Shown piece by piece: positions 5,651 to 9,502 of a stretch of 17,064 nucleotides of DNA. The position numbers and the translations under genes are program-made. Where the stretch lies: the NCBI GenBank assembly GCA_002340405.1, contig DDLZ01000158.1, forward strand, positions 2,402-19,465, in the 5' to 3' direction. The notes under the pieces are model-generated. The model saw only the letters and a list, made by a program, of their open reading frames with translations. It searched no databases and had not been told where the DNA came from. Origin of the DNA: Bacteroidales bacterium UBA2559 (GTDB lineage Bacteria; Bacteroidota; Bacteroidia; Bacteroidales; Bacteroidaceae). Numbering within the stretch: position 1 is the first letter of the stretch; every line of letters begins with the position of its first letter.

Positions 5651-7537
5651 TCAGATGTTGAGATTGATACCGCCCATAAATGTTATACCCGGCATGGGAA
5701 AACCTGCATTGATTTGGTACTTGGTGTTAAGCAGATTGTAGCCGTTTACCCAAAGCTGCAGCATATCCGATATGGAGTAGGAGAGACGTATGTTCCAAAG
5801 CAGGAAATCCTCTTTCTTCTCGGGGTTTATTGATGAATAGAGTCCGTTTATATACTGTAAGCCGGTATTTGCCTGCCAACTCTCTCTGCTATATGAGCCT
5901 TCCAGATATGCTTTGTGCTTGGGAGCGCCTATTACCGGAGTCTCCATATCGAGGAAGCTGTAATTTCCATTTACGGCAAAACTCTTTGATATGAGGTATG
6001 AAGCCTGCAACTCAACGCCACTGTTTTTCAGCTTACCGCTGTTCTGGTTCAACATGCCTGCACCGTTGGGATTGGGCAGAATCAGAATTATGTTTTCGGC
6101 ATCAATGTAGAACAGATTTATTCCGTAGTTCAACTTGCCGGCAAGCAGCCTCTGTGAGAACGAGAGTTCGTAGTTCCAAAGTGATTCGGGTTTAAGATCC
6201 GGATTCTGAGGCGGATACATATACATCTCCCTTATAATGGGATAACGGAATCCCTTGCCTGCCGAGAATTTTATTCCGGCTCCTGCCGGTAAATTCAGGG
6301 CTATTCCTGCCTGGGGTACAAGTTCGGTTCCTATGGTAAAGTGACGGTCGGCACGCAGACCCGCATTAAGGGTTATCAGCGAGCCTATTAACTGGCGCAT
6401 CTCAACGTAACCGGCCAGATTGTCCTCACGTTTGTCCACTTGAGGTACGTAAGTACCCTCTTGCAGATCCTCCACGAAATGCTTATCGGCCTTGCCGCCG
6501 TAGCGGTAGAAGTCAATGCCTGCTGTCAGACGGTTGCCCTTGAACAGATTTGCGCTCTGCCAGACAGATGCACCCAGCATCTCATCGTATGAGACGAACC
6601 GGAACAACCAGGGTGTACCGCCTGTGGCGTATCCGTCATTTATCCAGTGGTCGCCCCAGCTATAGAAGAGGCTGAAGGCACCCGATGTGCGGGAGTATCG
6701 GTTCTCAAGGAAGAGGGCGGTGGTTCCGCGGGTAATCTTTTGGTCGGCATCAATAAGCGGAGCGTTTTCAGGACCCGGCTGTGAGGCGATGAAACGCGTT
6801 ACATCAAGATTGGCCGATATATCCCAGTTGTCCGATATGTTATATCCCAGTTTGGCATAACCGCCATATTGTTCAAAGTTCATGTTCTCCCGATGACCGT
6901 CGCTGCGACTGTATGAACCTGACACTGCACTGCTGAATTTGCCATATCGGGTGGTGTTGAAAAGTTCGCTCTCAAAGGTATTGAATGAGCCGTACCCCAT
7001 GTGCAGATTGGTGCGGGTGCCGTCCTCTGCCGGTTTTCTGGTCACTATGTTAATGACACCCCCCATAGCGCTTGAACCGTACAGAAGTGATGCCGGACCG
7101 CGTACAACTTCAACTCTATCGGTCATACGCGACTGGTAGGAGTCGGCAATGGGATGGCCGTATATTCCGGCATAATTGGGATGGCCGTCAATCAGTACCA
7201 GAAAACGCGACGAACTGCCGGAGAGTCCCCGCATAGAGATGTTGCCGGCCGAACCGCCCGATACTCCGTATCCGGCAAAACCGCGTTGTGTGATAAAGAG
7301 TCCCGGTACTTGCTCCGTGAGCAGCGGAAGTAAGGAGAGACGGTTGCTCTCTTCAATAGCCTTACGGTCTATTACGTTGACCGTCTGTGAGAGATGCCTT
7401 ATGTTGGTTGCTGCACGCGTACCGGTTATCACAACCTCTTCAATACTGCCGGATTGAAGTGTGTCATTGAGTTCGACAGCGTGAGCGATTCCGAAAGAGA
7501 TGGCTGTTGCCGTGAGAATTAAGATGAGACGTTTCAT
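5651..7537 (-). CDS. TonB-dependent outer-membrane receptor
   Basis: Outer-membrane beta-barrel transporter using TonB energy to import a scarce ligand. The 628 residues begin with a signal peptide (1-20, ending AHA), followed by a TonB-box-like stretch, SIEEVVITGTR, at 31-41. A plug domain comes next, with RVEVVRGPASLLYGSSAMGG and INIVTRK. The rest is repeated amphipathic strands ending GGINLNI. Length and layout resemble BtuB and small metal-complex receptors, but no residue identifies the ligand. The ATG at 7535-7537 is chosen because the signal peptide starts there. The open frame continues 27 codons upstream into the promoter and operator. The gene stands alone on the minus strand, divergent from the lipoprotein and NikR-like genes. 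A 28-bp palindrome covers its -33 box, so repression by the adjacent NikR-like protein is the likely control. Nickel, cobalt or a corrinoid are guesses from that context. Confidence 0.93.
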   Translation of the reverse strand: MKRLILILTATAISFGIAHAVELNDTLQSGSIEEVVITGTRAATNIRHLSQTVNVIDRKAIEESNRLSLLPLLTEQVPGLFITQRGFAGYGVSGGSAGNISMRGLSGSSSRFLVLIDGHPNYAGIYGHPIADSYQSRMTDRVEVVRGPASLLYGSSAMGGVINIVTRKPAEDGTRTNLHMGYGSFNTFESELFNTTRYGKFSSAVSGSYSRSDGHRENMNFEQYGGYAKLGYNISDNWDISANLDVTRFIASQPGPENAPLIDADQKITRGTTALFLENRYSRTSGAFSLFYSWGDHWINDGYATGGTPWLFRFVSYDEMLGASVWQSANLFKGNRLTAGIDFYRYGGKADKHFVEDLQEGTYVPQVDKREDNLAGYVEMRQLIGSLITLNAGLRADRHFTIGTELVPQAGIALNLPAGAGIKFSAGKGFRYPIIREMYMYPPQNPDLKPESLWNYELSFSQRLLAGKLNYGINLFYIDAENIILILPNPNGAGMLNQNSGKLKNSGVELQASYLISKSFAVNGNYSFLDMETPVIGAPKHKAYLEGSYSRESWQANTGLQYINGLYSSINPEKKEDFLLWNIRLSYSISDMLQLWVNGYNLLNTKYQINAGFPMPGITFMGGINLNI

Positions 7538-7576: not shown

Positions 7577-7607
7577 CAAATATAACAATAGTAACACGAA
7601 TCCCCAA
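7577..7607 (-). promoter_or_regulatory. promoter of the TonB-dependent receptor gene
   Basis: Read on the minus strand, a -33 TTG lies at 7607-7605. A 20-nt gap follows, then TATATTTG at 7584-7577, which fits the TAnnTTTG box with normal Bacteroidetes spacing. Transcription would start near 7570, giving a leader of about 33 nt. The -33 box and half of the spacer fall inside the 28-bp palindrome at 7591-7618. Confidence 0.7.
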
Positions 7608-7618
7608 CTTCGTGTCAC
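7591..7618. promoter_or_regulatory. 28-bp palindrome, probable operator of the NikR-like regulator
   Basis: The arms are GTAACACGAA (7591-7600) and TTCGTGTCAC (7609-7618), separated by 8 bp. Nine of ten positions pair; the one mismatch is in the outer part of the arm. Counting the outer 6 bp as half-sites gives GTAACA-N16-TGTCAC, 28 bp in all, the same geometry as the E. coli NikR operator (GTATGA-N16-TCATAC) with different half-site bases. It overlaps the -33 box of the receptor promoter, a position expected to block transcription. A NikR-family gene lies about 1.1 kb away in the same locus. Binding is inferred, not shown. Confidence 0.65.
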
Positions 7619-7650
7619 GAAATATTTTATCTAAGAAATATTTTATCTAA
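7619..7650. repeat. 16-bp perfect tandem duplication
   Basis: The unit GAAATATTTTATCTAA occurs at 7619-7634 and again, identical, at 7635-7650. The pair directly abuts the 28-bp palindrome on one side and ends just before the -33 box of the lipoprotein promoter on the other. It is AT-rich, so it could act as an upstream activating element or as a second protein site, or be a simple recent duplication. Confidence 0.85.
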
Positions 7651-7651
7651 A

Positions 7652-7683
7652 TTGATAATATATTGAAATTATGCCTATATTTG
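7652..7683 (+). promoter_or_regulatory. promoter of the lipoprotein-nikR-like operon
   Basis: TTG at 7652-7654, a gap of 21 nt, then TATATTTG at 7676-7683 matching TAnnTTTG. The start of transcription would be near 7690, about 23 nt before the ATG at 7713. The box overlaps an upstream in-frame ATG at 7671, which argues against that codon being the translation start. Confidence 0.65.
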
Positions 7684-7712: not shown

Positions 7713-8741
7713 ATGCGAACAATAAATTTTAATATCATCTTGATAGCCATGGCGTTATCGATGTTCTCCTGTGATGAGTGGGAAGCACGGATCAGTACCG
7801 AGGTCTTCAGTGACGGCTCATGTGTAAGAGAGGTCTCCTCTAAAGATGCCGATTGTCTGATCATTGATGAGGGATGGTCAAAGACCGAGATTATTGCAGA
7901 CGGCGATACGGTCAAGACCACCATTTTAAGCAGACGGTTTAACAGTGTTGAAGAGATGGGTTCCTCGCCCGTTATCCGAGTATATGATGATCCTGTCAGG
8001 TCGGAGACATCGTTTGACAAGCGTTTTAAGTGGTTCTACACCGACTATATCTTTACAGAGACATTTCTGGGGTGGAGCGACCGTTACGATGAGCTGCCTG
8101 TGAGCCGTTTTATGACTCAGGATGAGGCTTCATACATGTTGGTCGGCTATCCGGCTCCGGAAGGACATTTGACCGGTTCGGAAATGCACGATTTGACATC
8201 GGAATTGGAGGTGAAATTGGCAGAGTGGAAACATTCTCTCCTTATATATGTATATGTCAATACGATAGCCCATTTTTACGGGGATGTAAAAAATCCGCCG
8301 GTTGATCTGAACACATTTATTGCCGCTCGTGATTCACTTGCCGCTTTTTCCTGGAAGCGTCAGACGGAACTCTTACCGATAGATGACGAGGTTGAACAGT
8401 TATTCAGCGATTTCTTCAAATCGGATGCCTATTCAATCTTCTTCAGTAAAACTTATAAAGATGGCATTTATAAGCAGTACGGAAGGGCTCTCTATGACAA
8501 GAGTTTCGGCCTGTTTGGTCTGAGTGCGTCATATACGCTTAAGTTGCCGGGAAAGGTCTTTTATGCAGGACCCGGAACAGTAGAGGAGGATAGGATAAGC
8601 TACCGTTTTAAGGGCGATTTTTTGGTTTTGGGCGACTATACAATAACCGCATCGTCAAGGGTGGTAAATGCGTGGACCATTATAGTTACAATTCTGGCAG
8701 CATTGGCAGCAGGCATTCTCCTGATAAAGAAAAAAGATTAA
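7713..8741 (+). CDS. lipoprotein with C-terminal membrane segment, function unknown
   Basis: The 342-residue product starts with a lipoprotein-type signal peptide whose hydrophobic core ends LSMFSC, making Cys20 the likely lipidated residue. Asp21 and Glu22 follow. In E. coli, Asp at +2 favours inner-membrane retention; whether the rule holds here is uncertain. The C-terminus carries a second hydrophobic stretch (about residues 318-337, AWTIIVTILAALAAGILL) followed by KKKD, a typical stop-transfer end. The protein would therefore be held at both ends with the folded domain (about 24-315) in the periplasm. The layout loosely recalls LppM-like lipoproteins, but I cannot assign a family. The start is set by the promoter overlapping the earlier ATG at 7671. 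It is 14 nt upstream of the NikR-like gene, probably in one operon, and divergent from the TonB receptor. Confidence 0.85.
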   Translation: MRTINFNIILIAMALSMFSCDEWEARISTEVFSDGSCVREVSSKDADCLIIDEGWSKTEIIADGDTVKTTILSRRFNSVEEMGSSPVIRVYDDPVRSETSFDKRFKWFYTDYIFTETFLGWSDRYDELPVSRFMTQDEASYMLVGYPAPEGHLTGSEMHDLTSELEVKLAEWKHSLLIYVYVNTIAHFYGDVKNPPVDLNTFIAARDSLAAFSWKRQTELLPIDDEVEQLFSDFFKSDAYSIFFSKTYKDGIYKQYGRALYDKSFGLFGLSASYTLKLPGKVFYAGPGTVEEDRISYRFKGDFLVLGDYTITASSRVVNAWTIIVTILAALAAGILLIKKKD

Positions 8742-8755
8742 TGTAGATAAGTAAT

Positions 8756-9157
8756 ATGGCGTTAAAAAGATTCGGAGTTTCACTTGAAGAGGATTTGCTG
8801 AAATCGTTGGACTCTTTCGTCAAGGAGGACGGATTCGCCAACCGTTCGCAAGCTATCAGGTTCCTTATTGAAAAAAATCTGGCAGAGAAAAAATGGCAAT
8901 GCAACCATATTGTTGCCGGTACCATATTTATAATATATGACCAGCAGCGCTCGGATATTTCCGCCCGTATATCCGAAATTCAGATTGAGCATCAAAAACT
9001 GATACTCTCATCGGCACAGCACTATATTAGCGAAGGTAAATGCCTGCATGTATCCACAGTGTTAGGAGAGGCACGCCAACTCACCGCACTCTCTGACGAG
9101 ATGACCTCAATCAAGGGTATCTGCCACGGCAAACTGCTAATGAGCCGCGCAGAATAA
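8756..9157 (+). CDS. NikR-family ribbon-helix-helix transcriptional regulator, non-canonical metal site
   Basis: The 133-residue length matches NikR. An N-terminal ribbon-helix-helix domain (1-45; LKRFGVSLEEDLLKSLD, then NRSQAIRFLIE at 29-39) precedes an ACT-like domain (about 52-130, ending GICHGKLL). By hand it aligns without gaps to the E. coli NikR metal domain. The four nickel ligands there (His76, His87, His89, Cys95) become Ile77, Gln88, Tyr90 and Cys96, so only the cysteine is kept. The potassium-site pair Glu30 and Asp34 becomes Gln32 and Phe36. Other Cys/His are present (Cys49, His51, His79, His89, His98, Cys123, His124) and might form a different site. Probably co-transcribed with the lipoprotein gene and likely acting on the palindrome at 7591-7618. 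The family call is firm; a nickel response is not supported, so the nikR symbol is withheld. Confidence 0.88.
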   Translation: MALKRFGVSLEEDLLKSLDSFVKEDGFANRSQAIRFLIEKNLAEKKWQCNHIVAGTIFIIYDQQRSDISARISEIQIEHQKLILSSAQHYISEGKCLHVSTVLGEARQLTALSDEMTSIKGICHGKLLMSRAE

Positions 9158-9252: not shown

Positions 9253-9260
9253 TATCTTTG
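9253..9260 (+). promoter_or_regulatory. -7 promoter box for the riboswitch-nrdD-nrdG transcript
   Basis: TATCTTTG matches TAnnTTTG exactly. No well-spaced -33 TTG is present; candidates give gaps of 15 and 23 nt. Transcription would start at about 9266, which is exactly where the 5' strand of the riboswitch closing helix begins, an independent support for the call. Confidence 0.6.
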
Positions 9261-9265
9261 TTAGT

Positions 9266-9448
9266 GTTATTGGTTTCCGTAGGGGAGGCACCCCGAAAGA
9301 ATAATTTGGAATCCGGTGTAAGTCCGGGACAGTACCTGCTGCTGTAAGTTCCACTTAAAATGTCCTATGCACTCTATGCCACTGGTCCTCAAAAGGGGGC
9401 GGGGAAGGCGCATAAAGGACGGAACGAGTCAGAATACCTGCCAATAAC
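9266..9448 (+). promoter_or_regulatory. cobalamin (vitamin B12) riboswitch controlling nrdD
   Basis: The conserved blocks of the cobalamin riboswitch appear in order: GGAATCCGGTGTAAGTCCGG at 9308-9327, then GACAGTACCTGCTGCTGTAA shortly after, GCCACTGG near 9378, GGGGAAGGCG near 9401, and the 3' B12-box-like GACGGAACGAG ... ACCTGCC ending at 9442. The closing helix P1 is a perfect 8-bp pairing of GTTATTGG (9266-9273) with CCAATAAC (9441-9448). The nrdD ATG lies 54 nt after P1. Effectors are B12 coenzymes; in known cases ligand binding lowers expression. There is no strong intrinsic terminator after the aptamer, so control of translation is more likely than termination, but this is inferred. 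Confidence 0.95.
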
Positions 9449-9502
9449 GTTTTGAATTTCTGCACCTTGCAGGCTTACGGGGTTGGAATTACATTTATTT
9501 TT

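Follow-up and report, generated by a model that had tools for sequence, protein, structure and literature searches.

We consider it highly likely that the NikR-like gene at 8756–9157 encodes the regulator that uses the element at 7591–7618 as its operator, and that this protein probably does not sense nickel through the classical four-ligand site. Both lie in the window, the 17,064-nucleotide stretch of Bacteroidales DNA analysed here, whose source genome spans 1.78 Mb in 158 contigs and is 83% complete. The best reading is a NikR that kept its operator and lost or rebuilt its nickel site. The features of the locus are listed in Table 1.

Table 1. Features of the receptor–nikR locus in the window.
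Feature	Position	Strand	Remarks
Receptor: TonB-dependent receptor, 628 aa, plug and barrel	5651..7537	-	presumed regulated gene
Receptor -7 box, TATATTTG	7577..7584	-	TAnnTTTG type; starts 5–7 nt past operator
Operator (predicted), GTAACACGAATCCCCAACTTCGTGTCAC	7591..7618	.	two GTNNNAC units, GTAACAC ... GTGTCAC; N14; 21 bp centre to centre
Operator unit GTAACAC, receptor-proximal	7591..7597	+	sequence and alignment of receptor upstream regions
Operator unit GTGTCAC, receptor-distal	7612..7618	+	sequence and alignment of receptor upstream regions
TATATTTG, possible -7 box of lipoprotein–nikR unit	7676..7683	+	by eye
Putative lipoprotein, 342 aa	7713..8741	+	by eye; divergent from receptor, just before nikR
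NikR-like regulator, 133 aa	8756..9157	+	RHH_1 and NikR_C; ligand positions I-Q-Y-C, not H-H-H-C

The predicted operator and the receptor promoter

The preliminary description of this DNA had drawn attention to a 28-bp palindrome, GTAACACGAATCCCCAACTTCGTGTCAC, which is present at 7591–7618; 9 of the 10 positions in its arms pair. On its own, the palindrome is weak evidence and only weakly beyond chance in 17 kb, because the window holds three 10-N8-10 palindromes with at least nine pairs and 30 mononucleotide shuffles hold 0–5 (mean ~0.5); these shuffles, like those used below for the spacing and the nikR starts, preserve base composition only. The chance expectation of zero for 7591–7618 concerns one exact sequence and says little. 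The case for the element being real rests on conservation across genomes. A scan of the source genome with the two-fold pattern at up to three mismatches found no second place, and the backward control also has one place. The NikR geometry proposed for the site was borne out, with two half-sites about two helical turns apart and an overall length of 27–28 bp. The GTNNNAC unit is palindromic in itself, so inverted and tandem forms interchange; NikR places one ribbon-helix-helix dimer on each operator unit, which fits a palindromic GTNNNAC. Past the operator, and before the possible lipoprotein promoter, a direct repeat, AAATATTTTATCTA, occupies 7620–7649 in two copies 16 bp apart.

The promoter words on the minus strand are as first described (TTG at 7607–7605, a 20-nt spacer and TATATTTG at 7584–7577), and the position of the element over the receptor promoter is supported. 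The -33 role given to the TTG was not upheld by conservation: the triplet is present in the window, but among 24 genus sites just one has a TTG 20 nt before the -7 box, six have it at 19 nt and two at 21 nt. TAnnTTTG starts 5 nt past the element in 18 of the 24. Outside the genus, the box was found at 12 sites, 10 of which show a 3-nt overlap between it and the last unit, and at none of 26 more.

A search of NCBIfam for the substrate of the receptor returned matches that, as far as shown, all fall below cut-off; one of these, TonB-B12 (TIGR01779), aligns over nearly the whole receptor length. The lipoprotein at 7713–8741 had no match in Pfam, even at E 1, and none in NCBIfam. Its relatives are transcribed away from the receptor in some members of the genus, and Cryptobacteroides has relatives of it too. 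Beyond the NikR-like gene, a cobalamin riboswitch (RF00174, 82.2 bits; 9254–9459, plus strand) precedes the anaerobic ribonucleotide reductase gene, so nrdD may be under B12 control.

Conservation within the genus

Twenty-six of the 37 genus genomes carry nikR, and in all 26 the two-unit element GTNNNAC-N14-GTNNNAC stands upstream of the receptor (23 by pattern, 3 by eye). The pattern scanned was GTNNYACGA-N10-TCGTGYYAC with at most one mismatch. Its matches in the 23 genomes all lie on the nikR contig (33 rows over both strands, of which 28 are exact), and it has no match in the 11 genus genomes without nikR (Fisher p 4e-7, phylogeny not corrected). Since the same pattern read backwards matches somewhere in 19 of 37 genomes, stray matches at one mismatch are not rare. 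The three genomes that raise the count to 26 were added after inspection by eye and have tandem forms with two units and N14; G014 and G026 share the spacing of the other sites, as does G031, where the element lies upstream of the receptor on another contig. Conservation of the palindrome alongside the regulator and the receptor, the lack of which had been named in advance as grounds against the operator, thus held (26/26 against 0/11).

The NikR_C search of the 11 nikR-less genomes found nothing (0/11); because genus genomes are 62–100% complete, absences among them are soft. A clear receptor orthologue is present in one of the 11, G025; five others have homologues at 41–51% identity, three have weak partial matches and two have none. 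The receptor of G025 is 65–68% identical and keeps the -7 box and a similar leader, and the best candidate for the element upstream of it has 5 mismatches of 14. G025 is a natural deletion case, in which nikR and the site are both gone and the receptor is kept. Gene order also differs within the genus: nikR is followed by the receptor, the lipoprotein and receptor genes are divergent or, in G032, nikR and the receptor are divergent. Despite these differences, the element stays with the receptor.

The NikR-like protein and its nickel site

The NikR-like protein passes the Pfam cut-offs for NikR_C (67.1 bits, cut-off 22) and RHH_1 (21.8, cut-off 20.5). Among NCBIfam models, it scores above cut-off with PRK04460 (111.6, cut-off 105) and PRK02967 (85, cut-off 83) and below it with PRK01002 (85.7, cut-off 111), TIGR02793 (71.7, cut-off 175.45) and PRK00630 (70.5, cut-off 119). 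The closest solved structure is 2bj1 (E 1.1e-24).

In E. coli NikR, nickel is bound by H87, H89 and C95 from one subunit together with H76 from its neighbour (PMC7055735). The ligand region aligns gap-free with the window protein, which has the replacements H76I, H87Q and H89Y and keeps C95 alone, so that the high-affinity set is incomplete. The set reads IQYC in 25 main-group proteins of the genus and QQYC in G032. At the potassium ligand positions E30 and D34, the window protein has Q and F; E/D occurs in just 1 of the 45 Bacteroidales proteins with the HHHC set, too. All 25 genus sequences have H at position 97, as do 54 of 57 other clade sequences; 44 of 45 HHHC proteins have E there. At position 62, the clade has Q in place of H. 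HHHC proteins contain a mean of 9.5 His, and those of the clade 3.7 and 5.0. A classical nickel response is improbable because I/Q, Q and Y replace H76, H87 and H89, with a conserved His at 97. C95 and H97 are two residues apart, so that if they share a strand, both could face a single pocket.

A tree of 89 proteins, built with the four ligand columns removed, places the window protein in a 31-row group with no HHHC member (SH-aLRT 99), the smallest starred group beyond the genus. Changes between HHHC and other sets number at least four overall, of which starred branches force only two; the tree has 129 columns, 44 of its 85 inner branches are open and it includes 27 of the 82 xQ[YF]C proteins. 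Other Bacteroidales lineages have probably lost the nickel set as well, with the operator retained.

Nickel enzymes were rejected as a guide to the ligand change. LarC, NiFe hydrogenase and urease were each found in 0 of 37 genus genomes, and 10 of 29 other clade genomes have a NiFe hydrogenase scoring above cut-off, so the enzymes do not track the change across the clade; nickel still matters in the part of the clade with the hydrogenase. Two NikR-like proteins with degenerate ligand sets, L061 (SHFY) and L066 (RRTS), are encoded beside LarE/LarB look-alikes (by eye), LarC and a UreH-like permease; nickel-cofactor genes there adjoin a regulator without the nickel ligand set.

Conservation beyond the genus

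The wider sample comprises the best 80 of 446 relatives and leans to window-like proteins. Its loci include Parabacteroides distasonis, goldsteinii and faecis, Coprobacter and Tannerella, and the element is found again in Parabacteroides and related bacteria. Named records that share the locus are MAGs from rumen and gut with the titles Bacteroidaceae, Bacteroidales or Prevotellaceae, including Candidatus Colenecus caballi (Bacteroidaceae). A receptor match is present at 60 of these best 80 of 446 loci; the spacing and alignment counts leave out the other 20 and L063, where the receptor lies behind another gene, and the match set leaves out fragments in G190, G246 and G308 and a truncated match in G391.

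Two units lie exactly 14 nt apart in 62 of 64 distinct receptor upstream regions, counting units with at most two mismatches to GTRACAC or GTGTYAC in any of four arrangements. The inverted arrangement alone gives 49 of 64 at N14, 0–3 at each of the 15 other spacings in the range 8–23, and 0 in three shuffled sets. In both units, conservation of the outer GT and AC is 95–100% in the genus and ~89% or more elsewhere, and the middle bases vary. Many relatives have the tandem form, which pairs poorly and leaves the N14 spacing unchanged. Upstream of the receptor in L097, L103 and L119, visual inspection showed additional half-sites beyond the main pair, as though two or more tetramers could bind there.

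Of 29 genomes scanned with the strict pattern GTRACAC-N14-GTGTYAC (L107 left out), 14 have a single copy and the remaining 15 none; the backward control occurs in 2. Thirteen of the 14 places lie just past nikR (in L104 and L112, the receptor is outside the DNA covered). At the level of this strict pattern, a wider regulon was considered and rejected, as the lone exception, on another contig of G150, looks like chance.

Relation to the canonical NikR of Bacteroidales

After removal of exact duplicates from 152, 141 distinct nikR loci were compared: 45 with HHHC, 82 with Q and Y/F at 87/89 and C95, and 14 with other sets. The residues at 87, 89 and 95 (plus 76 for HHHC) decide the class of a protein. 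Counts at those positions thus hold by definition, and counts at 62, at 97, and at 76 within the Q-Y/F-C class are independent of it. The element was accepted at N13 or N14 with at most two mismatches. In 26 of the 45 HHHC loci, it ends within 6 nt of the nikR ATG (N13 in 16 of the 26), and in 17 of 45 it lies just after the gene; at 15 of 45, no element with up to two mismatches was found on either side of nikR. Loci with other sets have it upstream in 7 of 13 and downstream in 9 of 14, and the Q-Y/F-C class upstream in 1 of 81, away from the start, and downstream in 49 of 82. Upstream and downstream, the shuffled controls gave 0 and 3 of 900 (HHHC), 11 and 19 of 1640 (Q-Y/F-C) and 3 and 2 of 280 (other sets), and the coding-start control gave no element in any class.

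From these counts around nikR, the operator most likely predates the ligand switch, and the window clade is without a copy at its own nikR start codon. The clade is a Bacteroidales group nested among canonical nickel-binding NikRs, and it has retained their DNA-binding sequence. Some neighbours of the canonical genes, identified by eye, look like NikMNQO accompanied by a receptor (L060), others like UreH-like permeases (L058, L063) or hyp genes (L068).

Discussion

The proposal that the NikR-like gene encodes the regulator gained support on three sides: the co-occurrence of site and nikR, the state of G025, which has neither, and the same element at the start codons of canonical nikR genes. 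The assignment of the site to the NikR-like protein is well supported because of this co-occurrence and this second location. In the proposed arrangement, a NikR tetramer would place one of its two ribbon-helix-helix dimers on each GTNNNAC unit, with the units spaced by two helical turns. Once bound, it would extend over the receptor promoter as far as the -7 box, and the position of the site over the promoter suggests that the receptor is thereby repressed.

The same observations bear on two explanations in which NikR does not act at the element. Binding of an unrelated transcription factor, with the nikR neighbourhood incidental, is very improbable, given that the site co-occurs with nikR and recurs at the start codon of canonical nikR genes. 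The inverted repeat might instead be no operator and act in RNA, as a hairpin or as the intrinsic terminator of nikR, as a repeat with a T run close behind nikR in several relatives (e.g. L034) would allow. We find this scarcely credible: the window repeat is 1.1 kb from nikR and upstream of both divergent genes, the tandem form of many relatives pairs poorly yet keeps N14, and in canonical relatives the element also precedes nikR.

What the protein senses is a separate matter. The same operator and regulator could still serve ordinary nickel control of a nickel receptor, with nickel (or cobalt) sensed through C95, H97 or other residues. The retained C95, the His at 97, the hydrogenase-bearing clade genomes and some canonical relatives next to apparent NikMNQO, UreH-like permease or hyp genes, in part together with a receptor (by eye), fit this account, which nevertheless seems unlikely to us: H76, H87 and H89 are all replaced, the clade proteins are poorer in His than the HHHC class, and none of the three nickel enzymes was found in the 37 genus genomes. 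We lean instead towards an effector switch in a NikR clade of gut Bacteroidales, human Parabacteroides included. Q87, Y89, C95 and H97 would form the rebuilt site, a QxY...CxH pocket for sensing a different metal, a metal complex or another small molecule, and the ancestral operator would have been kept for one TonB receptor.

Clade proteins of Parabacteroides and Tannerellaceae carry the database name nickel-responsive NikR. If the clade is nickel-blind, this name is wrong for common gut bacteria, and one operator and receptor pair would offer a direct assay of what the receptor imports. An effector switch, if true, would be a clean natural case of a metalloregulator whose signal changed while its DNA site stayed constant.

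Comparison with known systems

The E. coli NikR operator at nikABCDE is GTATGA-N16-TCATAC, 28 bp long. E. coli NikR shares with the window system a protein of RHH and NikR_C domains and a 28-bp two-unit operator; it differs in its half-site sequence and in H76, H87, H89 and the E30/D34 potassium ligands, which are not conserved here. An E. coli-type GTATGA operator was also considered in the intergenic region and rejected, the best match having 4 mismatches of 12 and the element itself 5. The preliminary description had called the recognition sequence unlike the classical one and its half-site new. The former stands on those 5 mismatches of 12; the latter does not, as a GTAACAC/GTGTTAC signal was predicted in 2004 (PMC545781). 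That paper gives the delta-proteobacterial NikR signal as GTGTTAC-N13/14-GTAACAC, and predicts the reversed form, GTAACAC-N13/14-GTGTTAC, in Desulfotalea psychrophila and before nikK of Desulfovibrio vulgaris. The window element has one difference in 14 from the reversed form, at N14. Half-sites and orientation are the same and the spacing is near-equal (the reversed sites in Table 4 of PMC545781 have N13), and the reversed signal was predicted for NikR-controlled uptake genes. The signal in PMC545781 belongs to delta-proteobacterial nickel transport genes, whereas here it accompanies a TonB receptor of Bacteroidales and a regulator without three of the nickel ligands. A NikR tree is named in a supplement of PMC2667541. 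Titles and abstracts in open-licence PMC yielded no paper on this operator in Bacteroidales or on a NikR clade without nickel ligands.

In Helicobacter pylori, FecA3 and FrpB4 are outer-membrane receptors. Their genes, fecA3 and frpB4, are among those controlled by H. pylori NikR (PMC7055735), a NikR protein controlling uptake genes as we propose here. H. pylori NikR has the HHHC nickel site, which the window protein lacks. The canonical HHHC NikR of other Bacteroidales (e.g. L060) has the operator type and the RFGVSL start in common with the window clade; it differs from that clade in keeping the nickel ligands and, in 26 of 45 loci, an operator at the nikR start codon.
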